From Bacteroidota bacterium (GTDB lineage: Bacteria > Bacteroidota > Ignavibacteria > OLB7), in assembly GCA_018266795.1 (NCBI GenBank), contig JAFDZV010000036.1:90971-154970 (forward strand): a stretch of 64,000 bases of DNA, in the 5' to 3' direction. Shown one piece after another: positions 2,382 to 18,202 of this stretch. Both the position numbers and the translations under genes were made by a program. How positions within the stretch are numbered: position 1 is the stretch's first letter; every line of letters begins with the position of its first letter. Under the pieces are notes generated by a model. That model searched no databases. It was not told the origin of the DNA and saw only the letters and a program-made list of their open reading frames with translations.

Positions 2382-3847
2382 ACGCGATCGGTGCACGGCT
2401 GCGCAAGGTTGGCGTGGGCGCCGATATCGGTCTCACGGTGGTGTTGCAGGTGATAAGCGCCGTGGCGGCGTTTGCATTTCAGGCGAAGTTCCTGCGCGCG
2501 CTCAGCCCGGAGGATTCCGGCCTCTACTTCCTTGCCATTTCCTATATCACGATCGGTGCGGGCCTGGGTGATTTCGGCATTGCCGCCGCCGTGTTCCCAC
2601 GGCTCTCCGTTGCGCGCGGCGAGATACCGCCGGCGTTCCGTGCCGCGCTGGTACTCAGAACGTTCACGCTGGTGGCCAGCATGGTTGTTCTGAACCTCTA
2701 TCTGATGGCGCGGGGGAAGTGGGACCTGCTGCCGCTGTTCAACGTCGGCGCGCTCTCCGTGTTCATCAGCGGCAAGGCAACGGGGCTGCGTCAGTTGGTG
2801 GAGATGATCTGGCGCATGCGGGGGCGCACGTATGTTGTGACGCTTCTCGCGGTGATCGATTCGGTGATAGCGCTGGCTGCAGTGGTGATCATGGCGATGG
2901 CGGGGAGGCTGACGCTTTACTGGCTGATGATCATCTTCACGGCCAGCAGCATCCCCGGCTGCATCGCGGTTGTGCTTCCGATGATTCCGCAGATGCGCGC
3001 CTCCGAAGCGTTCCGGATTCATATCCCGCGCCGCTACTACATCGCCCTGCTCACGGCCTCGCTGCCGGTGGCCGCCATGATCGTCCTGGGGCAGACCTCC
3101 GCCCAGTTGGAGACGTTGGTTATCGATTCGTACACCGCGATGAGCCATGCGGACATCGCCTCCTACAACGCAGCGGTGCGCCCGCTCACCGGGCTGATCT
3201 TCGTTGCCACCACGCTCGGCTTCGGCCTTGCCCCGCTTATCTCGCAGCATGCCCGCGGCGTTCGGTCCGACTATTCGCTCTCCTTCATCGTTTCGTTGGC
3301 GGTACGGCTGGTCGGCGTTATCTCGCTCGGGCTCTGCCTGGTGTGCGGGCTGTTCGGCGAGCAGGTGATGGGAGTGTTCGGCAAGGAGTACGTGAACGAC
3401 GCCTACATCCTGAGGATCTTCAGCGTGATCAGCGCGCTGACATTCACGGTGGTTGTGTTCGACCAGTTCCTGCTTGCGCTCGGCAAGCGAAAGCAGACGC
3501 TGATGGGGGCAACGCTCAATCTGGGCCTCGCGCTCCTTACCGAACCGATAACCATCAGAATGTGGGGCATTCGCGGGATGATGTACTCCAAGGGCCTCGC
3601 GCTCTGCTGCCTGATACTGTTCCAGCTTACGCGGATGAAGCCGGAGGCCCGCGTTGCGGCATGGAAGGGATTGCTTCGGCTGATTCCCTCCGCGGCGGTT
3701 CTGCTGGCCGCGCTTCTGTTCACGGTGAACTATGCATTGCCCGTACGGGCCGTGATCGCCGCCGTCGCGCTGCTCGGCATGCTGCTCCTGATGAAGACGG
3801 TTCGTCTGGAAGAGCTGAGAACCCTGAGGAGGCTGAGGGTGTCGTAG
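2378..3847 (+). CDS. Wzx-like polysaccharide flippase (MATE/MOP superfamily)
   Basis: This is a 489-residue membrane protein with 12-14 predicted helices spread over its whole length and few charged residues in them, typical of the MOP exporters that flip undecaprenyl-linked repeat units to the periplasm. The N-terminal part (QVISAVAAFAFQAKFLRA... then a Gly-Asp-Phe-Gly turn near residue 65) resembles polysaccharide biosynthesis proteins of the RfbX/Wzx type. The GTG start overlaps the preceding stop and follows a purine-rich run (ggaggggggg), a good ribosome-binding site. Wzz, Wzy and Wzx adjacency supports a Wzx/Wzy-dependent pathway. Substrate cannot be predicted. Confidence 0.85.
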   Translation: MNAIGARLRKVGVGADIGLTVVLQVISAVAAFAFQAKFLRALSPEDSGLYFLAISYITIGAGLGDFGIAAAVFPRLSVARGEIPPAFRAALVLRTFTLVASMVVLNLYLMARGKWDLLPLFNVGALSVFISGKATGLRQLVEMIWRMRGRTYVVTLLAVIDSVIALAAVVIMAMAGRLTLYWLMIIFTASSIPGCIAVVLPMIPQMRASEAFRIHIPRRYYIALLTASLPVAAMIVLGQTSAQLETLVIDSYTAMSHADIASYNAAVRPLTGLIFVATTLGFGLAPLISQHARGVRSDYSLSFIVSLAVRLVGVISLGLCLVCGLFGEQVMGVFGKEYVNDAYILRIFSVISALTFTVVVFDQFLLALGKRKQTLMGATLNLGLALLTEPITIRMWGIRGMMYSKGLALCCLILFQLTRMKPEARVAAWKGLLRLIPSAAVLLAALLFTVNYALPVRAVIAAVALLGMLLLMKTVRLEELRTLRRLRVS

Positions 3848-3862
3848 GGGCCGGTGATCAGT

Positions 3863-3926
3863 GTCAGTGGTCAGTCGTTAGTCGTTGGTAGAGACAAACA
3901 CATTCAACTGACCACTAACCACTGAC
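3863..3926. repeat. Inverted pair of degenerate 7-nt tandem repeats (TCAGTGG type)
   Basis: The left arm (3863-3888) reads as heptamers gtcagtg-gtcagtc-gttagtc-gttgg. The right arm (3905-3926) is its approximate reverse complement (caactga-ccactaa-ccactga-c). The two can fold into a long imperfect hairpin just after the flippase gene. The same heptamer type recurs at 9223-9287 and 10284-10350. It resembles the short tandemly repeated repetitive (STRR) sequences known from cyanobacteria in having a 7-nt period. Confidence 0.8.
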
Positions 3927-4037
3927 ATCCAACGGATGAAGATTGAATAACAGTTCCCTGCCGTTTTGCTCCCAAGGAATCCAGATGGGCGCAATTCACC
4001 GTAACTTTTGACCACCCCAGGTTGTATTTTACACGCT

Positions 4038-4113
4038 GTTCCGGGTTGGTGCTCCCTGTACTGTGGAGCCCGGAACATTCAGCCGGGATTCGTCCCACGT
4101 GCATCGTTGGGAC
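4038..4113 (+). promoter_or_regulatory. Two stable hairpins in the leader of the downstream glycosyltransferase operon
   Basis: Hairpin 1 spans 4038-4076: outer stem gttccgg/ccggaac, inner stem gctcc/ggagc, loop of 9 nt and a 6-nt bulge on the 5' side. Hairpin 2 spans 4092-4113: stem gtccca/tgggac, loop of 10 nt. Neither is followed by a T-run, so they do not look like simple terminators. A role as an attenuator or leader structure is inference. Confidence 0.5.
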
Positions 4114-4229
4114 ATGATACGTGCCGGGGGACGTCTCCGATCCTCGAGCATCCGTATATTCCCACGCATTCCCGGCTCGCATTCTTACCGCACGATGCCG
4201 CGGATCGTGACGCTCGCCGACTTTATTGC

Positions 4230-5216
4230 ATGGCAGAAACGCATCAACCAGACGGACGTAGCAGTCACCCTCACGTTAGCGTCGTGATGGTGAACTACAA
4301 CACGAAGGATCTCACCATGGAGGCCGTTCAATCGGTTTTCAGTTCGGTGCAGGACCCTTCTTTCGCCGTTGAGGTGATCGTTGTTGACAACGACAGTGCC
4401 GACGGCAGCGCCGATGCCATCGCCGCCCGTTTCCCGGACGTGCGTGTGATCCGCTCTCCGGAGAACGTGGGCTTCGGTCGTGGAAACAATCTGGGCGCCG
4501 CGTTCGCCGCCGGCGAAGCGCTCTTCCTTCTGAACACCGACACAATCGTACGTCCCGGCGCGATCGAGCACCTGTACCACAAGCTGTTCGAGAACGATGC
4601 CCGCGGGATCGTTGGACCGTTCCTGGAAAATCCGGACGGCAGCTATCAGTGCTCGATGCTTTCGTTCCCGACTGTGTGGCGCACGTTCTGCGTCTTCTTC
4701 TGGCTCGACCGCCTGCTCCCGCGCGTGCCTCTGTTTGCCGACGGGATGATGACGCATGTGGATCCGCTTGCCGAGCATGCCGTTGATGTGATCAACGGCG
4801 CCGCGATGATGATCCGCCGGGATCTGTTCGAGAAGATCGACGGGTTCGATCCCGAGTACTTCATGTACTACGAGGAGTCCGACCTCTGCATGCGCGTGGC
4901 CAAGCTTGGCTGCGTCGCCTATTATTCTCCCGGCGCACGGGTGCTGCATCTGATCAGCCAGAGCAGCAGAACGCATCCGTGGTGGTTCTACCACATACTC
5001 CGGCGGTCGCGAATGATCTATGCGCGCAAACACATGACCCCGCTGCAGCGTGTTGCCATGGCGACCGTTGTTCATGCTGCCTATGCGTTCCGGATCGTCA
5101 TCTATCCATTCATCGGCCTTGTGAAGCCACGGTTCAAGATGATGGGACGCAATATTCTGAAGTCCTATCTCCGCTTCGACGCCCCATATTTCCCCAGGAA
5201 GAACGCCAACGCATGA
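4230..5216 (+). CDS. Glycosyltransferase family 2 (rhamnosyltransferase-like)
   Basis: This 328-residue GT-A enzyme probably adds a sugar to the lipid-linked oligosaccharide at the cytoplasmic face. It has the opening strand VSVVMVNYNTKDL (about residue 15), the nucleotide-binding Asp segment VIVVDNDSADGS, the metal-binding position LNTDT, and the late acidic motif YYEESDLCMRVAK expected of the WbbL/RfbF-like subgroup. A hydrophobic/amphipathic C-terminus suggests membrane association. I chose ATG 4230 because homology-like sequence begins there; the longer frame back to 4008 is leader. Its stop overlaps the next start (ATGA, 5213-5216). Confidence 0.85.
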   Translation: MAETHQPDGRSSHPHVSVVMVNYNTKDLTMEAVQSVFSSVQDPSFAVEVIVVDNDSADGSADAIAARFPDVRVIRSPENVGFGRGNNLGAAFAAGEALFLLNTDTIVRPGAIEHLYHKLFENDARGIVGPFLENPDGSYQCSMLSFPTVWRTFCVFFWLDRLLPRVPLFADGMMTHVDPLAEHAVDVINGAAMMIRRDLFEKIDGFDPEYFMYYEESDLCMRVAKLGCVAYYSPGARVLHLISQSSRTHPWWFYHILRRSRMIYARKHMTPLQRVAMATVVHAAYAFRIVIYPFIGLVKPRFKMMGRNILKSYLRFDAPYFPRKNANA

Positions 5217-6421
5217 AGATTCTGGATATCACCTCCAGACTTCCCTATCCGCTGATCGACGGTGCGCGCATCTGCATGTATCAGCTCGTGCAGGGGCTTT
5301 ACTCGCATGGCCATAGCGTGCACGTCGTTGCGCTGGAGGAGGAGGAGTCCGATCCCGGACCGCTGGATCAGTTTGCGCAACTGCACGTTGTACGAATCTC
5401 CAACCCGCCGAAGGTGATCGGAGCGCTGAAGACGCTGGCGCGGAGCGAGCCCTACACGCAGTTGAAGCGGGAGCGGAAGGACGTCTATGATCTGCTGGAC
5501 CAGTTGCACGCCCGCGAGCGGTTCGATCTTGTGATTGCCGATCAGGCGCACGTGGCCCAGTACGGTGCGTACATGAAGCGCCGATATGGATTGCCCTACA
5601 TACTCCGCTGCCATAACGTTGAGCACGAGATCTACCGGCGCCACACGGCCACGGAGAAGAATCCGTTCATGCGCTGGTACGTGGGGCTGCAGGCCGATCG
5701 CTGGGCACGGTTCGAACAGGAGCAGATGCGAATGGCCGATGCATGCATCGCAATCACCCGGCGCGACGAGGATACCATCCGGCGGCTTGCGCCCGGCGTG
5801 CGCACCCTCACCGTGCCGGCTGCCGTTGATCTGCATGCGTTCCCCTATACCGATCCCGCGCAACGCGAATCGAACTCCATGATCATGCTCGGCAACATGG
5901 GCTGGCCCCCGAACAGAAACTCCGTGCTCTGGTTTACGCAGGAGATCCTGCCGCTGGTGATGCAGCGCAGGCCGGATGCCGTCTGCTACGTGGTTGGCGA
6001 CAATCCGCCGCTCGAACAGTTGCCGCGCCCATCGGAGAACATGCGGATCGAAGGGCGTGTGGAATCGATTGCCCCGTACTACAGTCGCATTGCGATCGGC
6101 CTGATCCCGCTGAACGTGGGTGGAGGGATGCGCGTGAAGATGGTTGAGATGATGGCGAGCGGCATGCCGATCGTTAGCACCGGTCAGGGAGCCGAGGGGA
6201 ACGAGGCCGTGCCGGGCGAGCATTATGTGCGAGGCGATACACCCGGTGCGTTTGCCGACGGCGTCCTCCGCCTGATGAACGATTCCGAGGAGCGTGTGCG
6301 GATTGCGCGTGCGGCCCGGGAGTTCGTTGCAGCTACCTATTCCACGGAGCAGACAAGCCTGCGTGTTGAGGAGCTGATGCATGATGTGATGGCACCGAAT
6401 ACTCGCCGCGTGGGCGCATGA
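5213..6421 (+). CDS. Glycosyltransferase family 4/group 1 (GT-B)
   Basis: This 402-residue GT-B glycosyltransferase has an N-terminal acceptor domain beginning MKILDITSRLPYPLIDGAR and a C-terminal donor domain. The donor domain has the Gly-rich loop and E-x7-E region of GT4 enzymes (GGGMRVKMVEMMASGMPIV, about residues 303-321). It resembles the TIGR03087/PEP-CTERM-associated type of sugar transferases. The donor sugar cannot be predicted. It overlaps both neighbours by 4 nt, so it is translated as part of one operon. Confidence 0.85.
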   Translation: MKILDITSRLPYPLIDGARICMYQLVQGLYSHGHSVHVVALEEEESDPGPLDQFAQLHVVRISNPPKVIGALKTLARSEPYTQLKRERKDVYDLLDQLHARERFDLVIADQAHVAQYGAYMKRRYGLPYILRCHNVEHEIYRRHTATEKNPFMRWYVGLQADRWARFEQEQMRMADACIAITRRDEDTIRRLAPGVRTLTVPAAVDLHAFPYTDPAQRESNSMIMLGNMGWPPNRNSVLWFTQEILPLVMQRRPDAVCYVVGDNPPLEQLPRPSENMRIEGRVESIAPYYSRIAIGLIPLNVGGGMRVKMVEMMASGMPIVSTGQGAEGNEAVPGEHYVRGDTPGAFADGVLRLMNDSEERVRIARAAREFVAATYSTEQTSLRVEELMHDVMAPNTRRVGA

Positions 6422-7575
6422 GGCTGGTTCCCACGATACTGTTCTGGGTTGCCGTCGGGTGGGTCTTCTACGTCTTCATCGGCTATACGCTGTTGATGGC
6501 ACTCCTTTCGCGGCTGCGTCCCCGGCCGCTGGCACGGTGCGCGGACTACAGGCCGCGTATTGCGCTGGTGATGGCCGCCTACAACGAGGAGCGGAACATC
6601 ACGGAGCGGCTCGAGAACTATCTCGATCTGGACTATCCGCGCGAACTGCTCTCGTTTCTGATCGGGAGCGACGGCTCCACCGATGGTACCGACGCCATCA
6701 TCGAACGCTATTGCGCGATGGATCCCTCCATGACGCTGCAGCGCTTCAATCGGGTGGGGAAGACCCGGATCATCTACGATCTCGCGGCGCGCACCGATGC
6801 CGATGTCATTCTCTTCACGGACGCGGACATTGTCTTCGCGAACGACGCCCTGAAGGTGATCGCCGGCTGCATGTCCGATCCAACGGTTGGAGGAGTGATC
6901 GGCAGGATGAGTTATCGAGACTCCGCCGCAAACGCCGGCAACCGCGGACAGGGGAAATACCTGCAGCTGGAGAACCGGTTGCGCGCCTGGGAGTCCCTCT
7001 TCTGGACAACCGTTGGCCCGAGCGGCGAATGCTTTGCCGTGCGGCGCGGAAGCTACAGCCCGATGACGGACTATCGTCTGTCGGACGACAATCATCTGGT
7101 GATCACGATCCCGCTCAATGGTCTCCGCGTCTGGTACGAACCGACCCTGGCGGTTGTGGAGTTGAACAAGCGTTCACTCGAGACGGAATCGCGGCGGCGG
7201 CTCCGCATGGGGCAGCAGGCAACCGCGACGTTTCTCGCGCACCCGGAAACACGCTGGCCGTGGCGGTCGCTGGTTGGCTTCGAGATCTGGTCGCACAAAC
7301 TACTCCGCAACCTGGTGGCGATCCCCATCTGGTTGCTCGCGCTCTGCGCGCTGCTGCTGGCCCCCGGCTCCACGTTCTTCGCCGCGGTGGCCGCGATGGT
7401 GCTTCTCTGGGGCCTTGCGATGCTTGGCGGATACATCGGCGACAGGCTTTCGGTGAACGTGCGCCTGCTTCAATATCCGCTCTACTTCACATCGATGCTG
7501 AACAGCCTCGCGATCGGATCGGTGCGAGCGGTCTTCTCCGGCGGATTGGACAGGTGGAACAGTCCACGGATGTGA
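6418..7575 (+). CDS. Membrane-anchored glycosyltransferase family 2
   Basis: This 385-residue enzyme has an N-terminal hydrophobic helix (about 5-25), a GT-A domain and three C-terminal hydrophobic helices (about 290-380), the layout of processive or membrane-bound GT2 enzymes. Motifs seen are IALVMAAYNEERNI, IGSDGSTDGT, FTDADIVF (metal site) and, after a SDDNHLVI segment, LRMGQQAT in place of the classical QxxRW motif. With RMGQQ in place of QxxRW it may be non-processive. It is coupled to the previous gene by ATGA overlap. Confidence 0.82.
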   Translation: MRLVPTILFWVAVGWVFYVFIGYTLLMALLSRLRPRPLARCADYRPRIALVMAAYNEERNITERLENYLDLDYPRELLSFLIGSDGSTDGTDAIIERYCAMDPSMTLQRFNRVGKTRIIYDLAARTDADVILFTDADIVFANDALKVIAGCMSDPTVGGVIGRMSYRDSAANAGNRGQGKYLQLENRLRAWESLFWTTVGPSGECFAVRRGSYSPMTDYRLSDDNHLVITIPLNGLRVWYEPTLAVVELNKRSLETESRRRLRMGQQATATFLAHPETRWPWRSLVGFEIWSHKLLRNLVAIPIWLLALCALLLAPGSTFFAAVAAMVLLWGLAMLGGYIGDRLSVNVRLLQYPLYFTSMLNSLAIGSVRAVFSGGLDRWNSPRM

Positions 7576-7722
7576 GGGGGAGTTGCTGAACGGCAACCGG
7601 TGGTGGGCGTGCGCAACCTCTTCGTGCACAGCTGCCGGCTGCCGCTGCGGTCATCCCCCCGGGTTCAACAACTGCGCCGCGGCTCGTGCGACTATTCCGT
7701 GCGGGACCGGGCCGAATGATTC

Positions 7723-9216
7723 ATGAGCACATCGAGCGTACAGAGTATTCCCGAAACCGGACCGCTGCGTTCGGCGCGGCGCGTGCTGGCATCAACCGTG
7801 AAGGGGATTCTGAAATCTCCTCGCGGCGTGCAGCTGCTCGTGGTATGTGCGGACGTTCTGATGCTGGTGTTCTCCTTCACGGCCTTCTACGCCGTGCGAG
7901 TGAAGAGCGGCCTGTTTCTGTTCGCGCCGGATGTGCCCCTTGCGGACTTCCTTCAGCCCACCGCGATGGTGCTGATTGCCTGGCTGAGCCTCTTCTGGTT
8001 CAGCGGCGTCTATATCTCGGTGCACAATCGGTCGCTGTTCGACGAGTTCTACGCCGTGCTGAAGGTGATCGTGATCGGCTGGGTGGTATTCTTCATAGCG
8101 ATCTATCTCACATCCAGCCACAACCCGGACGGCATCAGTTACCGAATGATCTCGTTACTGATCTATCTGGTATTGCTTGTCGGGGCAATCGGCTTCGGCC
8201 GCTTCATGGTGCGGCTCGTGGTGCGTCGGCTGCGAAAGCGCGGCATCGGACTGCGCCGCACGATCGTGGTTGGCGATTCGCCGAAGAGCCGCCAGCTCGT
8301 GGAGATGTTCACGAAGCACCCGGAGCTCGGCTACGCAGTGCTCGGGACCGTGGCGGTGAGCAACAGCGTGACGCCGGAGTTCGCCAGCAGGCTTCTGGGG
8401 CGGATCGAGAACATCGACCAGATCATCGCCGCCCGGCGTGTCGATGTTACCGTGCTCGGAATGGAACTGCAGCGGGAGATGGTGCCGAAGCTCCTTACCG
8501 AGACGGCCGTTGCCGACACGACGATCAAGATCATTCCCGATCTCTATGACATCGTCAGCGGGCAGGCGAAGGCACAGCATCTCTACGGCATTCCGTTGAT
8601 CGAGATCAACCCGCAGATCATGCCGGTGTGGGAGCAGCATCTCAAGCGCGCAATGGACATCGTCTGCGCCGTCGTGGGTCTGGTTCTTGGCGCGCCGCTC
8701 TGGATGTCCGCGGCGCTTGCGGTGAAGCTGGAGGATGGCGGGCCGGTGTTCTATTCGCAGGAACGCGTAGGGCTTGGCGGGCGACCGTTCATGATGCACA
8801 AGTTCCGCTCCATGCGCATCGATGCCGAGAGCAAGGGGATAAGCTGGACGACGGCGAACGATCCTCGTGTCACCCGTGTGGGACGGTTCATCCGCAGGAC
8901 GCATATCGATGAGCTGCCGCAGCTCTGGAACGTGCTGGTGGGGGAGATGAGCCTGGTGGGGCCGCGCCCCGAGCGTCCGTTCTATGTGGAGAAGTATTCC
9001 AAGGTGCTCCCCTCCTATCCGCGCCGTCTTCGGGTGAAGCCCGGCCTTACGGGCTGGAATCAGGTACAGCTCGAGGACATGGTGGAGAATGTGGAGTTCG
9101 TGCAGGAACGTCTGCGGCACGACTTCTTTTATATTGAAAACATGTCGCTTCGGCTGGATATCGAAATCATCTTCCGAACGATCCTCAGGGTCCTGCAGCG
9201 CAAGGGGCAGGCGTGA
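7723..9216 (+). CDS. Polyprenyl-phosphate sugar-1-phosphate transferase (WbaP/WcaJ-type initiating enzyme)
   Basis: This 497-residue enzyme should transfer a sugar-1-phosphate from a nucleotide sugar to undecaprenyl phosphate, the first committed step for the polysaccharide made by this cluster. Domains in order: four to five membrane helices (about 45-165), a Rossmann-like CoA-binding-type domain (about 175-290), a re-entrant helix and the catalytic bacterial sugar transferase domain (about 300-495). Key motifs are intact: QERVGLGGRPFMMHKFRSM, IDELPQLWNVLVGEMSLVGPRPE and KPGLTGWNQV. The length matches the family. It starts 147 nt after the previous gene. Confidence 0.92.
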   Translation: MSTSSVQSIPETGPLRSARRVLASTVKGILKSPRGVQLLVVCADVLMLVFSFTAFYAVRVKSGLFLFAPDVPLADFLQPTAMVLIAWLSLFWFSGVYISVHNRSLFDEFYAVLKVIVIGWVVFFIAIYLTSSHNPDGISYRMISLLIYLVLLVGAIGFGRFMVRLVVRRLRKRGIGLRRTIVVGDSPKSRQLVEMFTKHPELGYAVLGTVAVSNSVTPEFASRLLGRIENIDQIIAARRVDVTVLGMELQREMVPKLLTETAVADTTIKIIPDLYDIVSGQAKAQHLYGIPLIEINPQIMPVWEQHLKRAMDIVCAVVGLVLGAPLWMSAALAVKLEDGGPVFYSQERVGLGGRPFMMHKFRSMRIDAESKGISWTTANDPRVTRVGRFIRRTHIDELPQLWNVLVGEMSLVGPRPERPFYVEKYSKVLPSYPRRLRVKPGLTGWNQVQLEDMVENVEFVQERLRHDFFYIENMSLRLDIEIIFRTILRVLQRKGQA

Positions 9217-9222
9217 GAGAGC

Positions 9223-9287
9223 GTCAGTTGTCGGTGGTCAATGGTTCGTAGTCAGTGGTCAGTAGTTCTTGGGGCTTGGTTCTTGGC
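9223..9287 (+). repeat. Degenerate 7-nt tandem repeat
   Basis: Directly after the sugar transferase stop the sequence reads in 7-nt steps: gtcagtt, gtcggtg, gtcaatg, gttcgta, gtcagtg, gtcagta, gttcttg, gggcttg, gttcttg. The units share the pattern GTxxxTG. They match the heptamers at 3863 and 10284. No coding explanation fits. Confidence 0.75.
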
Positions 9288-9315
9288 CAGGACCGAAGAT
9301 CGAACGACAAGTAGG

Positions 9316-9381
9316 AGTTCCTGACGAAACCGGGTGGCGATAGCATGCCTGCCGGCCTTGCAGCGACTATGGATAGGAGCT
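9316..9381 (+). ncRNA. Leader element copy A (66 nt, undescribed structured element)
   Basis: This copy aligns without gaps to copies at 29227-29291 (minus) and 59399-59464 (minus). It has the shared blocks aaaccgg (about 11 nt in) and gcctgccggccttgcagc, where the family pattern is GCxTxCxGGCCxTGCAGC. The ends agttcct and aggagct pair (with one G-U), and the pairing extends outward to gtag/ctac at 9311-9314 and 9382-9385. It lies 148 nt before the start of the glycosyltransferase at 9530, in the same relative orientation as the other copies. Confidence 0.65.
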
Positions 9382-9529
9382 CTACGTGATAGTCCGTCGA
9401 ATCTGGTTCCGGGCCTTCGGGGTGGTTGTGGTGAATGTCCCCGGCTGGCTCCGTCAACCAATGACAATTGAGGGCGGACTATCAGCAGCAATTCAGCATA
9501 CTCCATTGTAGGCACAGAGATAAAGAAGC

Positions 9530-10285
9530 GTGGTTGAGCAGTTTGTCCCGCAGCGCGCCCTGGTAATCATTCCTACCTATAACGAGATCGACAACGTTCC
9601 ATCGTTGATCGGCCTCGTGCTGGATGCCGATCCGCGCATCGACGTTCTCTTCGTAGACGACGGTTCCCCTGACGGCACCGGTGACTACATCAGAACGTTG
9701 ATGGAACGCGAGCCTCGCGTGCATCTGCTGCAGCGTCCGCGAAAGATGGGGCTAGGGACGGCATACTGCCGCGGCTTCGAGTATGCCATCGAGCATGGGT
9801 ACGATGTGGCGATGGAGATGGACGCGGACTTCTCGCACGATCCGAAGGTGCTGCCGCGTTTTCTGGAGGAGATCGAGAGCGCGGACCTGGTGATCGGCTC
9901 ACGCTACGTGAAGGGAGTGAACGTGATCAACTGGCCGATGAGCCGGTTGCTTCTCAGCTACTTCGCGAACATGTATTCCCGGTTCGTCACCGGGATGCCG
10001 CTGCACGACGGCACCGGCGGCTTCAAGTGCTTTCGCACGGAGGTCCTGCGGCGTATCGATCTCGGGCGTGTGAAATCCAACGGATACTCCTTTCAGATCG
10101 AACTGAACTTCCTTGTCTGGAGCCTGGGGAGGAAGATCGTGGAGATCCCCATTGTCTTCGAGGACCGCCGCAGCGGCGTCTCCAAGATGTCGCGCAACAT
10201 CATCTTCGAGGCGGCCGGAATGGTCTGGAAGCTCCGCTTCGCCAAGCTCTTCGGCACGCTGAAGAAACGATACATGAGCGCGTAG
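9530..10285 (+). CDS. Polyprenol monophosphomannose synthase-like GT2
   Basis: This 251-residue GT-A enzyme resembles dolichol/polyprenol-phosphate mannosyltransferases (DPM1/Ppm1). These load a sugar from a GDP- or UDP-sugar onto a polyprenyl phosphate for later transfer outside the membrane. Motifs are ALVIIPTYNEIDNV at the N-terminus, VDDGSPDGTGDYI, EMDADFSHDP (metal site) and DGTGGFKCFR. The length is typical for forms without a membrane domain. The GTG start is supported by the upstream purine run and by homology starting within ten residues. The sugar could be mannose or glucose. Confidence 0.85.
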   Translation: MVEQFVPQRALVIIPTYNEIDNVPSLIGLVLDADPRIDVLFVDDGSPDGTGDYIRTLMEREPRVHLLQRPRKMGLGTAYCRGFEYAIEHGYDVAMEMDADFSHDPKVLPRFLEEIESADLVIGSRYVKGVNVINWPMSRLLLSYFANMYSRFVTGMPLHDGTGGFKCFRTEVLRRIDLGRVKSNGYSFQIELNFLVWSLGRKIVEIPIVFEDRRSGVSKMSRNIIFEAAGMVWKLRFAKLFGTLKKRYMSA

Positions 10286-10350
10286 TCGGTGGTCAGTAGT
10301 CAGTCGCATACAGACTCAACTCACTATTGACCACTAACCACTAACCCGAC
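10284..10350. repeat. Inverted pair of 7-nt tandem repeats
   Basis: Left arm 10286-10306 (tcggtgg-tcagtag-tcagtcg) and right arm 10324-10348 (ctattga-ccactaa-ccactaa-cccg) are approximate reverse complements. They fill the gap between two glycosyltransferase genes. They belong to the same heptamer family as 3863-3926 and 9223-9287. Confidence 0.75.
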
Positions 10351-10366
10351 CAATAGCCAGCACTCC

Positions 10367-12334
10367 GTGGATATCTCCGTCGTCATCGTCAACTACAACG
10401 TCTGCGACCTGCTGCTGAATGCCGTGGCGTCCGTGTATGTTGCGTTGGAGGGGATCGAAGGGGAGATCATCGTTGTGGACAATGCCTCCACGGACGGCGC
10501 GGTGGAGGCGCTCAATCGGACCTATCCCGATGTGATCACCATCCCGCTGGACCGGAACCTGGGATTCGGGGCCGCGAACAACATCGGCATCGAGCGCTCC
10601 AGCGGCCGCTACATCCTGATTCTGAATCCTGATACCGTTGTGCAGGAGGATACTCTCCGCACGATGCTCGCCTTCATGGCGGAGCATCCGGACGCGACGT
10701 TTGCCGGCTGCAAGATCATTCTGCCGAACGGTGCCTACGATCCGGTTTCCAAACGCGGCTTCCCCTCACCCTGGTCTTCGTTCTGCAAGGTCTTCGGTCT
10801 GAGCCGTCTCTTCCCGAAGTCGCGCCTGTTCGGCGGGTACAACCTCACCTACATCGATCCGGACCAGACCGCCACCGTTGATGCGCTCTCCGGCTGTTTC
10901 ATGTTCTGCCGCGCGGACGAGCTGAAGGTGCTGGGGGGGTTCGACACGGATTACTTCATGTACGGCGAGGACCTCGATCTCTGCTATCGTGCAACGAAGC
11001 GGGGAGGGGTTATCTACTACCATCCCGCCACCTCGATTCTCCATCTCCGCGGGCAGAGCACGCGCAGAAGTTCCATCGATGCGCTTGCCGTCTTCTACGA
11101 GGCCATGGAGATCTTCGCGCGGAAGCACTTCCGCTCGAACCTTGCGCTCCTCTGGATGCTGCGGCTTGGAATCCGGGTGCGGCGCTTCATCGCGCGTGCG
11201 CTGGAGCGCTTCCCGGCGATGGGGCTCGCCGTGGTGGACGTGATCGCAACCCTGGTGGGTTTCATGATCGGCTCCTCCATAAAGTTCGGCGGCCCGTTCG
11301 TCTATCCGGATTATGCCTTCCCGCTGGTGCTGATCCTCCCCTCGCTCATCTTCATCATTGCCCTTGGAGTGGTGGGCGGCTATTCGTCTGACGATCGCGC
11401 GCCGGGCAAGGCGCTGCTCGGCTTCATGCTGGGCTTCTTCGTGTTGAGCACGCTCCCGTACTTCTTCAAGGCGTACGCGTTCAGCCGGGGCGTGGTGCTG
11501 GTCACCACCGGCGTGGCGGCGTCGATAGGCGTTGTTGCGCGTTTCCTCTGGCTCCTGTACAGGCGCACATTCGGCGCCGAGGCCATCCGCCGTGTTGCAT
11601 TCCTCGGGCGCAAGGCCATCGGCCCGGAGGCACGCAACGCCGTTCGGCGGATGTTCGCCACGCGTCCCGTTGCGATCGTGGGGACGGTTGTGCCGGCGTT
11701 CAGCGACACCGTTGCGTTGGGGGAGGAGGCATTGGGAACGGTGGAGAATATCGGAAAGATTGTTCGCGAATTCGGTCTGACTGATATCTTGGTATTCGAT
11801 TCCGTGCTGAGCTATGGTGAGGTGCTGCGGGCGATGGAGCATGTGGCCAAGAAGCCTGTACACTTCCACATCCTTCATGGATCGCTGGAATCGAGCGATG
11901 ACGCGGCTTCCGGCGCATCGATGACGGCGGTCATTCCCTCGCGGGAGCGCCGAGCGTCCGTTATCGCTCTTCGAAAGCTTCGCGATCGAATCGCGGCGGG
12001 AATGGCCTTATTGTTCGCGCCGGTTGTATATTTGGCTTCTGAAACACCCGGTGTTCACCTTCGGATGCTATGGGAAGTGCTGATCGGTCGCCGTCCGTTG
12101 GTGGGCGCGGCCAGGGGACCGGTTCCGACGATGGTCGAGCCGATGTTCTCGATGACGGCACTGCATCGGGAAGGGACGCTGAGTGCGCGTGAGGTGGCGC
12201 AGATAGAGAGCTTCTACAGCGCCAATCAATCGTTTCTGCTCGATTGCGAGATTATCATCGCGGTGCTGAGGCATCGCAGACCCACGGTTGCCATCGAATC
12301 CGTGGTAAAAAAGGGGAAGCGGCTGCCGGGGTAA
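10367..12334 (+). CDS. GT2 glycosyltransferase fused to a degenerate polyprenyl glycosylphosphotransferase module
   Basis: This 655-residue protein has two halves. Residues 1-285 are a GT2 rhamnosyltransferase-like enzyme (VSVVIVNYNVCDLL, IIVVDNASTDGAVEAL, LILNPDTVV, YGEDLDLCYRA). Residues about 290-655 follow the plan of WbaP-type enzymes: four membrane helices (about 290-400), a Rossmann-like domain (about 405-510, RVAFLGRKAIGPEA ... TDILVFD) and a remnant of the catalytic domain. In the remnant, MLWEVLIGRRPLVGAARG stands where active enzymes have the SLVGPRP motif, and the RxGxxGxxFxxxKFRSM segment is missing. I infer an active GT2 with a non-catalytic membrane/scaffold half. It begins with GTG at 10367. 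Downstream is accA, unrelated. Confidence 0.78.
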   Translation: MDISVVIVNYNVCDLLLNAVASVYVALEGIEGEIIVVDNASTDGAVEALNRTYPDVITIPLDRNLGFGAANNIGIERSSGRYILILNPDTVVQEDTLRTMLAFMAEHPDATFAGCKIILPNGAYDPVSKRGFPSPWSSFCKVFGLSRLFPKSRLFGGYNLTYIDPDQTATVDALSGCFMFCRADELKVLGGFDTDYFMYGEDLDLCYRATKRGGVIYYHPATSILHLRGQSTRRSSIDALAVFYEAMEIFARKHFRSNLALLWMLRLGIRVRRFIARALERFPAMGLAVVDVIATLVGFMIGSSIKFGGPFVYPDYAFPLVLILPSLIFIIALGVVGGYSSDDRAPGKALLGFMLGFFVLSTLPYFFKAYAFSRGVVLVTTGVAASIGVVARFLWLLYRRTFGAEAIRRVAFLGRKAIGPEARNAVRRMFATRPVAIVGTVVPAFSDTVALGEEALGTVENIGKIVREFGLTDILVFDSVLSYGEVLRAMEHVAKKPVHFHILHGSLESSDDAASGASMTAVIPSRERRASVIALRKLRDRIAAGMALLFAPVVYLASETPGVHLRMLWEVLIGRRPLVGAARGPVPTMVEPMFSMTALHREGTLSAREVAQIESFYSANQSFLLDCEIIIAVLRHRRPTVAIESVVKKGKRLPG

Positions 12335-12487
12335 ACCCAATCCCTCATACCCGGCACCGGTACTGTCACAGATACGGTGATCGGTTCGCCTGCAGGCGGA
12401 CCGGCGGATACCGTAGATTTCCAGGGGCGGGCGGCATCCCTGCACACCAATCGAACGCCCGATGCCCTGTATCGGAAACACAGAACA

Positions 12488-13444
12488 ATGGCGAAGTACG
12501 TTCTCGAGTTTGAACGTCCGATTTTCGAGTTGGAGGAGAAGATCGCCGAGATGCGGTCCATGTCCGATCAACTCGATATCGGCGATGAGATAGAGGTTCT
12601 CGAACAAAAAGTTGAGCGACTGCGAGTGAGCGTCTACGAACAGCTTACGCGATGGCAGCGCGTACAACTTGCCCGTCACCCCGACCGCCCCTACACCCTT
12701 GATTATATTGCCCTCATCTGCGACGACTTCATCGAGCTGCATGGCGACCGCGCCTATGGCGACGACAAGGCGATCGTCGGCGGCCTTGCACGCATCGACG
12801 GGATCGAGCTTGTGCTGATCGGCCAGCAGAAGGGGCACGACACCAAGGAGAATCTGGAGCGGAACTTCGGGATGCCGAACCCGGAAGGGTATCGCAAGGC
12901 ATTGAGGCTGATGAAGCTGGCGGAAAAGTTCTCGCTGCCCGTACTCACGTTGATCGATACCCAGGGCGCCTATCCCGGCATCGAGGCCGAGGAGCGCGGC
13001 CAGGCCGAGGCGATAGCGCGCAATCTCCTGGAGATGGCCCGGCTTCGTACACCGATCGTCAACGTTGTGATCGGTGAGGGAGCAAGCGGTGGCGCCCTTG
13101 GCATCGGCATGGGTGACCGGTTGTTGATGATGGAAAATTCGTGGTACTCGGTTATTGCCCCTGAATCCTGTTCCAATATTCTCTGGAGGAGCTGGGATTA
13201 CAAGGAGCAGGCCGCCGAGGCATTGCGTCTTACTGCCCGAGATCTTCTCGAGATGGGAATCGCCGACGGCATCATCCCTGAACCCGTTGGTGGCGCTCAT
13301 CGTTTTCCGGCGCAGGCGGCCGAAGCTCTGAAGGGGAGCGTTCTGCCCGCCATCCGGGAACTGATGGGGCTGCCCCTCGAGATGCTGATCGAACGCCGCC
13401 ACGAGCGCTATGCATCCATCGGGGTGTGGACCACCGCCGGCTAG
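12488..13444 (+). CDS. accA: Acetyl-CoA carboxylase carboxyltransferase subunit alpha
   Basis: This 318-residue cytoplasmic subunit, with AccD, transfers CO2 from carboxybiotin to acetyl-CoA to make malonyl-CoA for fatty-acid synthesis. The length matches the family. An N-terminal helical part ([15 protein letters not shown]) is followed by the crotonase-like core with [32 protein letters not shown] and the oxyanion-hole region [18 protein letters not shown] 12488 fits the usual AccA N-terminus; the frame extends to 12377 without family-like sequence. accD is not in the window. Confidence 0.96.
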
Positions 13445-13639
13445 CTAGCGATTCGATTGTGCCGTTTGGAATGACACTATGGGGACGAGCCGGAAATGAC
13501 GCACGGTGTTGGCGCGATCCGGTGGAGTGGCTTGCTGTAAACAACACCATAACCATACCTATCCGGATTGAAAGCACCATGCGAGTGCGAGGCATCGTGC
13601 AGGACAGGTACCCATACCGTGAAGCAAGGGGACAGAACA

Positions 13640-15748
13640 ATGGCTGCATCTGACAATACGGGAGGCGACGACCAGGGAAAATCCTGGCGTAGCAGAGGAG
13701 TCCGCGGAACGGGGGAATCCGCGCGTGAAGAGAGGAGTGAATCGGGTTCCGACGGAGGACGTCGCGAGACTCCTCGGTGGGAACCGGTATGGCGGGGCAG
13801 AACCCGTCCTGAGTCGGGCGAGGGGGATGCTCCCCGCCGTGATACGAACTTTCGCGAGCGCCGGACCGCAACACCGCGCGATACCGAGGCCCCGCGTGAT
13901 CCCGAACGGCGCGACGATGCCGGCCGCGGCGAGCCCCGCAGCGCCGGCCCACGCCGCGACGCCGGCGACAAGCCTGCATGGCAACCGCCGCGGAGAGATC
14001 TCGGCGATCGTCCGGGAGGCGATCGCGGCGACAGGCCAGGCGGCGACAGGCCGGCACCCCGCGAAGCCTTCGACCGTGGTTATCCGCGCCGTGAGGGGGC
14101 CGATGCGCGTGGCTTCGGCCCGCGCCGTGAGGGGCCGTCGGAGCGCGACAGCTTCCGCCGCTCGTCGCCGGATGCCGATTCCCGCGAAGGCTTCAGGCGT
14201 GAACCGCGCAGGGATGATGCTCCGCGCGAAGGAGGCTTCCGACGTGTAGGCCCGGATCGTGATTCCGGTCCGCGCCGCGACGGGCCGCCGCCGAGGCAGT
14301 TCGGCCCGCGCCGCGATGCGTCGTCGGATCGGGGCGACATTCGTCGCGATGGCCCGGAACGGCGTGAAGGCTTCGAGCGCCGCGAGAGTGGAGGCGAACG
14401 TCGTGAGGGATATGGCCGCCGTGATTCGGGCGAACGCCGCGAGGGTGGGTACTCGCGTCCGGCCGGTGATCGTCGCGAGGGCGGCTTCTCCCGCCCGGGC
14501 GGTGACCGCCGGGACGGAGACCGTCCGGTGCGGTTCGAATCGCGCCGTGATGACGAGGGACGCGAACGCCCGGCACGCTCATTCGGCGCTCGCGATGGCG
14601 GCCGCCGCGACTATTCCTCCAGGAACGGAAGCGAGGATCGCGGGTCCGACGATCGCCGCGAGGGGCGCGGAGGCGGGCGGGCGCCGATGTTCATGCCGTC
14701 GCGTCCGGGAGCCTACCGATCGAAGTCCCGCACCGGCGACAAGGAAAAATTCCTTCCCAAAAAGAAGAAGAAGGTTCGCGTCTATTTCCACCAGGCGCTC
14801 ACACGTATTCTGCTTCCGAAGCTTCTGGTAAAGGCACGCTACCTCTCGCCGATGCTGGCCCGCCAGTTCATCGAGGCGGGTCGTGTACGGGTGAATGCGC
14901 GCATCGTCTCCTCGCGATTCTACGAGGTAAATCTTCGGAAGGAGCGTGTAACCATCGACGAAGCGCCAACCGAATATCCGCGGCGCGTCTCGTACATGGT
15001 GATCAACAAGCTGGCCGGCAGCATGTGCGACAAGAACGACGAGCTGTTCAGCTCCATTGCCGACGGCTCATCGGAGTGGGCATTCCCGTTCGGTCGTCTG
15101 ACGAAATCGGTATCGGGCCTGGTGATCTTCTCCAACGATCCTCGCATGCTTGCGCGCCAGCACATGCTGGACGTGGAGTTGCAGAAGGAGTATCGCGTCC
15201 GCATCAACAAGCATCTCACCGATGAACAGATCGATGAGCTGCGGCACGGCATCCTGGTGGGAGAGGACTACTTCGTTCCGCTGCGCGTGATCCCGGGCAA
15301 CCGGAACAAGAACTCGATGTGGCTGGATATCACGCTGCTGGACGACTCCTATCATAACCTCTATCCGGCGTTCAAGAAGCTGGGGTGCGAGGTGGTGAAG
15401 ATGCGTCGTATGCGTATCGGCCTGCTCAACGAGACCATGGTGCCGCCGGGCGAGTGGCGCGAGCTGAGCGGATTCGAGATCACCGCTCTGCAGCTGGCGC
15501 GCTTCATGCCGGGCGAGCTGCCGCCGGAACCGGCCACACCGATGCGGCCGCGGCTGGAGAAGGCCCGTGGCAAGTTCGCCGGGAAGGAGTTCGGCCGCGG
15601 CGGACCGCGGAAGCCGGAGTGGGATCGCGATCGCCGGTTCCCGCCTGGTGCCCCTCGCAAGCCTGGATTCGGGCGCCGTCGTGACGATGAGGATCCGGAG
15701 GATCGTCAGCGGCGCGAGGAGCTTGCGGACTCCATTGGAAATCGTTAG
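13640..15748 (+). CDS. S4-domain RluB/RsuA-family pseudouridine synthase homologue lacking the catalytic Asp, with a long Arg/Asp/Gly-rich N-terminal tail
   Basis: This 702-residue protein has three parts. Residues 1 to about 375 are a disordered, highly charged tail made of RRD, RREG and GDRR-like repeats. Residues about 383-440 are an S4 RNA-binding domain (RQFIEAGRVRVNARIV). Residues about 450-640 match the RsuA/RluB pseudouridine synthase fold (GRLTKSVSGLVIFSND, QKEYRVRINKHLTDEQIDEL, MRRMRIGLLNETMVPPGEW). The catalytic motif should be GRLDxxTxGL, but Thr488 occupies the Asp position. The later GRNRQVRRM-type motif reads DDSYHNLYPAF. Fold and RNA binding look kept while catalysis looks lost. 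Start ATG 13640 is preceded by ggggacagaac. A role in ribosome assembly is inference. Confidence 0.82.
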   Translation: MAASDNTGGDDQGKSWRSRGVRGTGESAREERSESGSDGGRRETPRWEPVWRGRTRPESGEGDAPRRDTNFRERRTATPRDTEAPRDPERRDDAGRGEPRSAGPRRDAGDKPAWQPPRRDLGDRPGGDRGDRPGGDRPAPREAFDRGYPRREGADARGFGPRREGPSERDSFRRSSPDADSREGFRREPRRDDAPREGGFRRVGPDRDSGPRRDGPPPRQFGPRRDASSDRGDIRRDGPERREGFERRESGGERREGYGRRDSGERREGGYSRPAGDRREGGFSRPGGDRRDGDRPVRFESRRDDEGRERPARSFGARDGGRRDYSSRNGSEDRGSDDRREGRGGGRAPMFMPSRPGAYRSKSRTGDKEKFLPKKKKKVRVYFHQALTRILLPKLLVKARYLSPMLARQFIEAGRVRVNARIVSSRFYEVNLRKERVTIDEAPTEYPRRVSYMVINKLAGSMCDKNDELFSSIADGSSEWAFPFGRLTKSVSGLVIFSNDPRMLARQHMLDVELQKEYRVRINKHLTDEQIDELRHGILVGEDYFVPLRVIPGNRNKNSMWLDITLLDDSYHNLYPAFKKLGCEVVKMRRMRIGLLNETMVPPGEWRELSGFEITALQLARFMPGELPPEPATPMRPRLEKARGKFAGKEFGRGGPRKPEWDRDRRFPPGAPRKPGFGRRRDDEDPEDRQRREELADSIGNR

Positions 15749-15762
15749 ACCCCTTCAGCGCC

Positions 15763-16200
15763 ATGCCCGAGATCGTTGCGAACATGGTGCAGGTGCATCC
15801 GTTCCGCGTGCGGAACGGGACGATCGAACATCTGCTGCTCCGCCGGTCCCGACTCGAAGCATTCGGGGCCGGCGTCTGGCAGGTGATAACCGGAGTGATC
15901 GAACCAGGTGAACGTTCGTTCGCAGCCGCGCGGCGCGAGCTGGCGGAGGAAACCGGACTGGAGGCTGACCTGTGGATTTCGCTCCCCGGCGTGGCCGTCT
16001 TCTTCTTCGAACCCGCAGATCAGATGATCCTCTCGCCCATGTTTGCCTGCCAGCTCCCTGCAAACTGCGAACCACTCCTCTCGAACGAACACTCGGAGTA
16101 TGAATGGCTGCCCCGCGACCCGGCATGCAGTCGTCTGGTCTATCCCACCCACATCCAGGGGCTGAATGAGGTGGAGGCACACGGCGTTGTGCGGATCTAG
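15763..16200 (+). CDS. NUDIX hydrolase
   Basis: This 145-residue pyrophosphohydrolase has a complete NUDIX box at about residues 44-66 (GVIEPGERSFAAARRELAEE then TGL), which binds Mg2+ and cleaves NDP-X substrates. The opening (VQVHPFRVRNGTIEHLLLRR) and size resemble dihydroneopterin triphosphate pyrophosphatase (NudB-like) and general NUDIX proteins, so the substrate is uncertain. It starts 14 nt after the preceding gene and is probably co-transcribed with it. Confidence 0.88.
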   Translation: MPEIVANMVQVHPFRVRNGTIEHLLLRRSRLEAFGAGVWQVITGVIEPGERSFAAARRELAEETGLEADLWISLPGVAVFFFEPADQMILSPMFACQLPANCEPLLSNEHSEYEWLPRDPACSRLVYPTHIQGLNEVEAHGVVRI

Positions 16201-16281
16201 CTGCCGCTGGAGCTCCGGCTCCGGGCGCCCTCGCGAACGGCGTACACCGCACCGGCGACACCAGCTATCGGATTCGATCTC

Positions 16282-17043
16282 ATGCGTCGGATTGCCCTTC
16301 GATTGATGTACGACGGAACCTTGTTCGTCGGCTGGCAGCGCCAGCCGAACGGCCGGTCCGTTCAGGAGGAACTCGAACGCATGCTTGGCCGCCTGGCCGG
16401 CGACCAGCCGGTTGGTGTGGTGGGGGCGGGACGCACTGATTCCGGCGTGCATGCTCATGGGCAGGTTGTGCATGCGGATATCCAATCCCGCTACGACGAC
16501 GCCGCCATCCTTCACGCGCTGAACCGGATGGCGCCGGAAGATCTGGCCGTTACGTCGCTCGTTACCGCGTCGGCGGACTTTCATGCACGCTACAAGGCCT
16601 GTTCCCGCAGCTACCGCTACAGCATCCTCTTTCACTCCGATCCCTTCCGCACGCGCTATGCATGGCGTGTGCAAGGCATGCCGGATCTCGGGATACTTCG
16701 AGAGGCATCCGCACGGCTGGTCGGGACGCACAACTTCACCACGCTCTCCAAGAATAATCCCGATACACCAAACAGTGTCTGTACCGTAACTCGCGCCGAA
16801 TGGCGGGAAGGGGAGAATGGGATCGACTTTCACGTGACTGCGGACCGGTTCCTCTATGGCATGGTGAGGCTTCTGGTTGGATGGCAGATCGACTGCGCTC
16901 TCGGAAGACGTGCCCCCTCGGAGCTGGGGGAACTGCTTGCCGCGTGCGACCGGTCGCTGCAAAGCACATCGGCGCCGGCGCACGGGTTGTCCCTCGTGGC
17001 CGTTGGCTATCCGCCGGAGTTCGATCCGTTTGCCGCCGGCTAG
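16282..17043 (+). CDS. truA: tRNA pseudouridine(38-40) synthase
   Basis: This 253-residue cytoplasmic enzyme converts uridines 38-40 of tRNA anticodon arms to pseudouridine. The catalytic Asp53 is in the conserved motif GAGRTDSGVHAHGQ. The N-terminal strand RIALRLMYDGTLFVGWQRQP and the FTTLSKN and FLYGMVRLLVG segments are also typical. The length fits the family. It follows the NUDIX gene by 81 nt on the same strand. Confidence 0.95.
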   Translation: MRRIALRLMYDGTLFVGWQRQPNGRSVQEELERMLGRLAGDQPVGVVGAGRTDSGVHAHGQVVHADIQSRYDDAAILHALNRMAPEDLAVTSLVTASADFHARYKACSRSYRYSILFHSDPFRTRYAWRVQGMPDLGILREASARLVGTHNFTTLSKNNPDTPNSVCTVTRAEWREGENGIDFHVTADRFLYGMVRLLVGWQIDCALGRRAPSELGELLAACDRSLQSTSAPAHGLSLVAVGYPPEFDPFAAG

Positions 17044-17226
17044 TGTGCGGTGGAACGCCGGAAGCCCGCCGTGCTCACGATGAAGAAGTGATTCCCGGCG
17101 CAACCATGGGCCTGCGTTTGGCAAGCCATTACGCGAGAATCGCAGCGGAATCTCGAAGCCAGGTCGTAAATTCGCGCCTACCCTGAGATAGAGCGGCTTG
17201 TCCGCGCATTTCAACTCAACTGCACT

Positions 17227-18066
17227 ATGAAATCCTTCCGTCCGTTCCAGACAGCAGGACGCCTCTCCAGGCGCGCCTGGCTGTACCTGTCGGCGAGCAT
17301 CCTTGCTGGGCTCGCCGCATGTGGTCTGAACATCTACTCTGTCGACCAGGATGCCTCCCTCGGCAAGCAGATGGATCAGGAAATTCGTAGCACCCCATCG
17401 CAGTATCCGATTCTGAACAACGAAAGTGTTCGCGGGTACGTGCAGGGTGTGGTCAACAAGATCATCCAGTCGCCGGCTATCAAATATCGGGGCAAGTTCC
17501 CCTACACCGTCACCATCATCAACGATGACAAGACGGTGAACGCATTCTGCACGCCCGGCGGCTACATCTATGTCTACACCGGGCTGCTCAAATTCATCGA
17601 CAACGAGGCCACGCTGGCCGGCGTCGTGGGGCACGAGATTGCGCATGCCGAGGAACGTCACGGCACGAAGCATATGACGCAGGCGCTGGGCGCGGACATT
17701 GCATTGCAGATCGCGCTTGGTAACAATCCCGGGCAGCTGGCGCAGATCGCCGGAAACGCGACCGTGTTGCTGGCGACGCTCCGCAACAGCCGTTCCGACG
17801 AGATGGATGCCGATACGAAGTCCTTCGAGTATCTGCGCAGCACGCCGTACTATCCCGGATCGATCCAGTTCTTCTTCAAGAAGATGGTGGACGCCCAGGG
17901 GAATCGTACGCCGAGCAAGCTGGAGGAATGGACCTCTACGCATCCAACCTCGCAGGAGCGTTACGACAACATCAACAGCCTGCTGAAGTCGTCGAATACG
18001 CCGCCGCCCACGGCCGCGAATCTCTTCGCCGACAATTATCGCAACATGCTCAGCCGCCTTCGTTGA
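17227..18066 (+). CDS. M48-family zinc metalloprotease lipoprotein (LoiP/BepA-like)
   Basis: This 279-residue protein has an N-terminal signal with lipobox (SILAGLAAC, Cys32), so it is likely a periplasm-facing lipoprotein. The zinc-binding HExxH is HEIAH at residues 136-140, within VVGHEIAHAEERHGTKH, and a downstream SDEMDAD segment supplies the third ligand region. This matches peptidase family M48C, envelope quality-control proteases. No TPR tail is present. It starts 183 nt after truA and probably has its own promoter. Confidence 0.9.
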   Translation: MKSFRPFQTAGRLSRRAWLYLSASILAGLAACGLNIYSVDQDASLGKQMDQEIRSTPSQYPILNNESVRGYVQGVVNKIIQSPAIKYRGKFPYTVTIINDDKTVNAFCTPGGYIYVYTGLLKFIDNEATLAGVVGHEIAHAEERHGTKHMTQALGADIALQIALGNNPGQLAQIAGNATVLLATLRNSRSDEMDADTKSFEYLRSTPYYPGSIQFFFKKMVDAQGNRTPSKLEEWTSTHPTSQERYDNINSLLKSSNTPPPTAANLFADNYRNMLSRLR

Positions 18067-18202
18067 TGCGATTGCGCAGGGAGCCGCGCGATGCCGGCGG
18101 CTGCGAACCGATCCATCGGCCGGACACATTCACGGTTGCGGACAACGCATTCGCCGCAGGCCTGCGGCGACCGCGGCCCTCACATACTGAAGATCATCCT
18201 CA

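Follow-up and report, generated by a model that had tools for sequence, protein, structure and literature searches.

A family of GT2 glycosyltransferases fused to a predicted catalytically dead WbaP-type phosphoglycosyl transferase in the Bacteroidota

The 64,000-nucleotide stretch of DNA analysed here (the window) encodes a protein in which a GT2 glycosyltransferase, predicted to be active, is joined to a large phosphoglycosyl transferase (Lg-PGT) of the WbaP type from which the catalytic core has been excised. This fusion is no local oddity; it belongs to a phylum-wide family, spread across much of the Bacteroidota and nearly universal in its class, and the pseudo-PGT region is under purifying selection. 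Co-occurrence strongly indicates that the fusion accompanies one vertically inherited clade of Lg-PGTs as a dedicated companion, and the whole suggests a role for dead enzymes in organising the sugar assembly line. The features referred to below are collected in Table 1.

Table 1. Features of the fusion protein and of its gene neighbourhood in the window
Feature	Residues	Position	Strand	Basis or remark
GT2/pseudo-phosphoglycosyl transferase fusion	655 aa	10367..12334	+	Open frame, GTG start; 137 homologous ORFs
GT2 (GT-A fold) catalytic domain	1-255	10367..11131	+	PF00535 match, invariant residues, PDB GT-A matches
Four-helix transmembrane bundle as in Lg-PGTs	~282-402	11210..11572	+	AF2 helices (285-307, 320-335, 346-366, 374-402), 8t53 and WbaP profile matches
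Rossmann-like DUF (PF13727 type)	~405-505	11579..11881	+	Homologue PF13727 matches, AF2, 8t53
Hairpin region, directly after DUF	~506-524			Degenerate, low confidence in window lineage
PGT-domain remnant: re-entrant helix, 'VLxGxxxLVG' segment, C-terminal helices	~525-640	11939..12286	+	Consensus alignment, WbaP profile match, PglC Z 7.9, homologue PF02397 matches
Excision point	~557-566	12035..12065	+	~65 residues of intact PGTs gone, including KFRSM and catalytic DE
PLVGAARG replacing SLVGPRPE	577-584	12095..12118	+	
Intact WbaP-type Lg-PGT	497 aa	7723..9216	+	HKFRSM, HIDELPQ, SLVGPRPE present
DPM1-like GT2 (polyprenyl-phosphate sugar synthase type)		9530..10285	+	Conserved direct upstream neighbour of fusion
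accA		12377..13444	+	Conserved downstream neighbour of fusion
GNVR-domain protein		1-828	+	
Wzy_C		825-2381	+	
Wzx-like		2378-3847	+	PF01943 slightly below cut-off
GT2		4008-5216	+	
GT1/4		4979-6421	+	
GT2		6418-7575	+	

The N-terminal half of the fusion has the GT-A fold, the donor/metal residues and the base residues by which GT2 enzymes are recognised. PF00535 matches residues 4-116 (E 1.9e-22), and D38, D43, N87-P88-D89, E201-D202 and H226 are invariant in an alignment of 58 homologues. With all catalytic residues present, this half is predicted to be an active glycosyltransferase. The NCBIfam GT2 models TIGR01556 and NF041875 score under cut-off on the fusion protein. These describe GT2s acting on Und-PP-oligosaccharides (the WbbL-like rhamnosyltransferases and EpsD, respectively), which share the GT-A fold and the NPD and ED motifs with the fusion, whereas the membrane part of the fusion is borrowed from an Lg-PGT. 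Matches of the full-length model in a Foldseek search of the PDB were mostly GT-A folds, and the C-terminal half was for this reason modelled separately.

The sequence-only reading had assigned a WbaP-type plan to the C-terminal half, and sequence profiles and structural models both uphold this. In the window protein, TIGR03025 (EPS_sugtrans) matches residues 290-556 (E 1.6e-11; model 2-278 of 445), and a Pfam search gave neither a PF13727 nor a PF02397 match. Among 94 homologous C-terminal halves, PF13727 is matched by 82 and PF02397 by 73 (best E 6.6e-16), the PF02397 matches in sampled homologues being confined to the model's C-terminal half (~93-176 of 179). A profile of the fusion family matches WbaP (30us, 9s7s, 8t53; E ~2e-27) over two separate stretches, skipping the catalytic segment; profile positions 284-567 and 565-643 fall on WbaP, the second at 379-467 of the 30us chain, and ~70 WbaP residues, from 307 to 379, are left unmatched. 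Similarly, the match of the family profile to PglC begins at PglC residue 98, just past the catalytic dyad (D93-E94).

A WbaP-like fold, for which structure prediction had been proposed as the check, is present in the models. The AF2 models reached mean pLDDT values of 85.5 (whole fusion, 58 homologues) and 87.8 (C-terminal half, 94 homologues). The top PDB match of the latter is Salmonella WbaP (8t53; Foldseek E 3e-7), with a VIA superposition of Z 11.8 over 305 aligned residues; the next-ranked matches, far below, are Rossmann domains. PglC (8e37) fits residues 264-376 of the modelled half (Z 7.9 over 111 residues). The family thus has the features that mark Lg-PGTs (WbaP, WcaJ, CpsE; TIGR03025, PF13727 plus PF02397), namely the 4-TM bundle with a Rossmann-like DUF and the re-entrant helix with the C-terminal part of PF02397, and residues ~282-640 can be described, from alignment and modelling, as a WbaP-type Lg-PGT in plan and fold. 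PglF-like dehydratases have an N-terminal 4-TM bundle and DUF in common with Lg-PGTs (PMC10942596). A PglF-like origin of the membrane part is excluded, since both sequence and structure show a PGT tail, rather than an SDR dehydratase domain, following it.

What the fusions have lost became clear from a consensus alignment of 103 non-redundant fusions with 36 intact Lg-PGTs of the same loci. The fusions show a single clean gap of ~65 columns, bounded by the re-entrant helix (KRxxDI..S...L....P) before it and by 'VLxGxxSLVG' after it, which deletes 'IKLDSKGPVFYKQERVG...KFRSM...NDPRVT..G.F.RK..LDEIPQ'; a second, shorter gap deletes 'PRPERP...RR'. Outside the gaps the fusions have kept the TM bundle, the DUF with the hairpin region, and the re-entrant helix, as well as 'GKPGLTGL' and the 'YYxxNYSxxLDxEI' helix. 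In a motif scan, KFRS, DE[LF][PW]Q and VGPRP were found in none of the 137 fusion ORFs, which include a handful of reduced forms, while the intact neighbouring PGTs have VGPRP in 36/36 cases and KFRS in 32/36. The absence of KFRSM and the replacement of SLVGPRP by PLVGAARG were seen just as first read from the window, and every homologue lacks an intact active site. Neither the window protein nor its family has the catalytic Asp-Glu dyad, KFRSM or VGPRP of Lg-PGTs, from which it differs also in having a GT2 at its N-terminus. Monotopic PGTs work by the chemistry of an Asp-Glu dyad. Given the absence of the dyad segment, the PGT domain of the fusion should be unable to act as a PGT, and the C-terminal half is, on its sequence and predicted structure, a catalytically dead Lg-PGT (pseudo-PGT).

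Recent decay in one strain and sequencing artefact are both excluded as explanations, the same excision being found in all 137 homologues. Pairwise dN/dS values for the remnant are mostly 0.05-0.25, compared with ~0.02-0.12 for the GT2; a lone 0.96 for the remnant was obtained for two sequences whose dS is 0.01. The remnant of the window lineage is evolving more quickly, with a dN/dS of 0.37 against its nearest relative (L001 versus L005, 50% identity), and in the window protein the hairpin region has an AF2 pLDDT below 50. The fast remnant and the degenerate hairpin make the window lineage a less typical member of the family.

The search of other genomes recovered the same fusion, with its core excised, in the 137 homologous ORFs. 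In a set of relatives, 59 of 61 genomes have a match at E <= 1e-20, nearly all of them a full- or near-full-length fusion. A sample of 296 genomes from across the phylum has full-length matches in almost every member of the class and in ~50 genomes outside it; in the remaining matching genomes only the GT2 part is matched, in frames of ~390-430 aa. A member of the Neomarinimicrobiota (L062) has the fusion as well. The extra ~105-145 residues of the short relatives align to the DUF of the fusion (hhalign probability 95.8%, E 8e-9); without TM bundle, re-entrant helix or tail, these proteins consist of GT2 and DUF. The sequences can thus be arranged in an apparent series from the intact Lg-PGT, through the core-excised Lg-PGT with GT2, to the DUF alone with GT2. 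The series is unrooted, and its last step would presumably have run from the full fusion to the DUF-only form.

Three further contigs deserve mention. A Polaribacter gene (L088:12259-14142), with a masked stretch in mid-gene, encodes a GT2 together with an apparently intact Lg-PGT (KLRSM, SLDELPQ, VVGPRP), possibly an active counterpart of the pseudo-PGT fusion. On a Chloroflexi contig (L069), a GT2 of the fusion kind overlaps an intact Lg-PGT gene. A Kapabacteria-type cluster lies on a contig filed as Desulfobulbaceae (L060); its PGT has a near-identical counterpart on an Ignavibacteriae contig (L085), and L060 is probably mis-binned.

In the window, the fusion gene belongs to a cluster that is of Wzx/Wzy type by its predicted products (GNVR, Wzy_C, Wzx-like and several GTs). 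The intact WbaP-type enzyme said to be encoded upstream is indeed there, its gene (TIGR03025 E 3.4e-124, PF02397 E 4.5e-69) ending 1.15 kb before the fusion. The order wbaP, DPM1-like GT2, fusion, accA is repeated through the class, often with an interposed DegT/DnrJ/EryC1 aminotransferase, and variants of it occur in other Bacteroidota; in Neomarinimicrobiota the gene order is the same but there is no adjoining wbaP.

We counted adjacency at 67 loci with at least 5 kb of upstream sequence, five of which carry reduced forms. At 31 of these an intact PGT is encoded on the same strand at a distance of 0.6-3.5 kb; genomes have ~3 PGTs each, and adjacency by chance would be expected at 1-2% (a rough estimate). 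Adjacency is not a universal rule, about half of the loci having no PGT within several kb, and we therefore looked for unlinked PGTs of the same clade. The tree of Lg-PGT domains places all 42 fusion C-termini on one side of a branch with SH-aLRT 100 and unites 34 of the 36 operon PGTs in one group (100), separate from the other Lg-PGTs of those genomes; these are quick trees, with clade support ranging from 91 to 100 depending on sampling. The PGT of the window belongs to this operon clade.

Where a genome has the fusion with no adjoining PGT, an unlinked PGT of the operon clade was found in 32/32 cases tested (14, plus G150 and G052, plus 16). Conversely, 14 of 16 genomes with neither a full-length nor a short fusion also lack the clade (G008, G011, G196, G249, G107, G126, G098, G122, G125, G062, G085, G100, G132 and G070); the exceptions are G074, which has it, and G083, with a long-branched candidate. 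The association with an active WbaP homologue, put forward as something to be checked, is therefore specific to one PGT clade (32/32 versus 1-2/16; Fisher p ~1e-10 to 2e-10, shared ancestry ignored). In each of families f5, f15 and f35, some genomes have both fusion and clade and others neither, a pattern that speaks for the two having been lost together more than once. Genomes with DUF-only forms have the operon clade in 9/10 cases, in three as a long-branched member; the tenth, G156, has a small PGT only. In the mirror-tree analysis, the distances of the pseudo-PGT part give a partial rank correlation of 0.31 with those of the PGT and of 0.58 with those of the DPM1-like GT2. Two other chains seen in this survey (G025, L154:7623-10106, minus strand; G052, L208:1-2073, plus strand) carry a WecA-type polytopic PGT (PF00953) in-frame with a complete Lg-PGT (PF13727 and PF02397), that is, two unrelated types of initiating enzyme on one chain.

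The WbaP dimer is held by TM3 and by a hairpin of the DUF that reaches across to the partner chain; UMP, UDP and UTP bind and stabilise the WbaP DUF, and UMP inhibits the full-length enzyme (PMC10942596). As the fusion keeps the dimerisation and nucleotide modules and has lost only the chemistry, docking of a dead on an active Lg-PGT is the best reading. We propose, with the balance about even, that an active GT2 carries a pseudo-PGT that docks it on the cognate active PGT, here the product of 7723-9216. The DUF with its hairpin and TM3, the parts used in Lg-PGT dimerisation, would dock the GT2 onto the active PGT, and the re-entrant helix, a membrane-seated part of Lg-PGTs, may share in this. 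The PGT would make the Und-PP-sugar and hand it to the fused GT2, which would add an early, probably the second, sugar; we infer the PGT contact, what the GT2 uses as acceptor and the order in which sugars are added. Speaking against docking are the mirror-tree values, the degenerate hairpin and fast remnant of the window lineage, and the presence of the PGT clade with no fusion in G074. A broader proposal, that mixed complexes of pseudo-PGT and active PGT form a two-enzyme membrane line throughout the phylum, and that the little-understood DUF of Lg-PGTs is a general docking module able to recruit other GTs, is plausible but more tentative.

Since the mirror-tree shows no preference for the PGT over the DPM1-like neighbour, a lipid-binding alternative stays alive, in which the dead PGT part holds Und-PP-sugar (or Und-P) for the fused GT2 with no PGT contact. 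The membrane-facing parts flanking the excision ('KRxxDIxxSxxxLxxxxP', 'GKPGLTGL', 'YYxxNYSxxLDxEI') are kept, as it would predict, and the neighbour whose distances track the fusion most closely works, by homology, on polyprenyl phosphate. We consider it unlikely; in the most reduced relatives the DUF has outlived the re-entrant helix and tail, so it is not lipid holding that is kept longest. The persistence of the Rossmann-like DUF in full-length and reduced forms would equally suit a sensor of UMP/UDP, regulating the fused GT2 in step with the UMP-making PGT, and the nucleotide effects on WbaP fit this too. It is improbable, however, in that the retention of TM bundle, re-entrant helix and tail is unexplained except as an anchor. 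Could the dead PGT be a mere membrane anchor, with no partner and no ligand, inherited from an old GT2-PGT fusion? The Polaribacter fusion shows that such fusions can arise, and the overlapping Chloroflexi genes point the same way. We nevertheless give this little credence: DUF and remnant are under purifying selection, co-occurrence with a single PGT clade is obligate also where the genes are unlinked, and in reduced forms the DUF outlasts the TM bundle. That the fusion is still PGT-active through a re-invented active site is suggested by homology alone and is highly implausible, the catalytic dyad segment and substrate-binding motifs having gone from all 137 ORFs.

Like Bi-PGTs, the fusion has a second functional domain joined to a monotopic PGT, but that class is defined by an extra domain on a PGT catalytic core (PMC10942596), which is absent here. 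The tyrosine pseudokinase EcpK of the Myxococcus EPS pathway is likewise a dead homologue of a pathway enzyme and a proposed Wzx/Wzy scaffold (PMC12004946); it is, in contrast, a stand-alone member of another enzyme family, with the PCP rather than the PGT as partner. The link between fusion and PGT is one of genomic association. Glycosyltransferase-glycosyltransferase contacts are known in Rhizobium (PMC9961541), and together with EcpK they indicate that such organisation does occur. The open-access literature searched (subscription papers lay mostly outside its scope) held no paper pairing 'phosphoglycosyl transferase' with 'pseudoenzyme' and no description of a GT2/pseudo-PGT fusion. Pseudoenzyme scaffolds are already known; it is the enzyme family and the fusion that appear to be new.

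The loss of the active site, with the accessory modules kept across most of the phylum and down to DUF-only forms, makes their function testable domain by domain. The family offers a natural test case for the role of the accessory DUF in the most abundant class of initiating PGTs, and for the physical coupling of initiating and elongating enzymes in polysaccharide assembly. It also implies that many proteins matching the Pfam family 'Bacterial sugar transferase' should be unable to act as sugar-phosphate transferases.

Some minor observations concern the surrounding DNA. A promoter and terminator scan of 7000-13600 gave matches at chance level. Short intergenic repeats resembling GTGGTCAGTAGT lie at 3867-3878, 9255-9266 and 10289-10334 (4 matches versus 0.11 expected). 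On the strand opposite to the cluster, a 794-aa ORF (15748-18129, minus strand) has no Pfam match. The pseudouridine synthase (RsuA/RluB-like) at 13568-15748 has a ~410-residue N-terminal extension ahead of its S4 domain, and its relatives are found after accA at other loci too.
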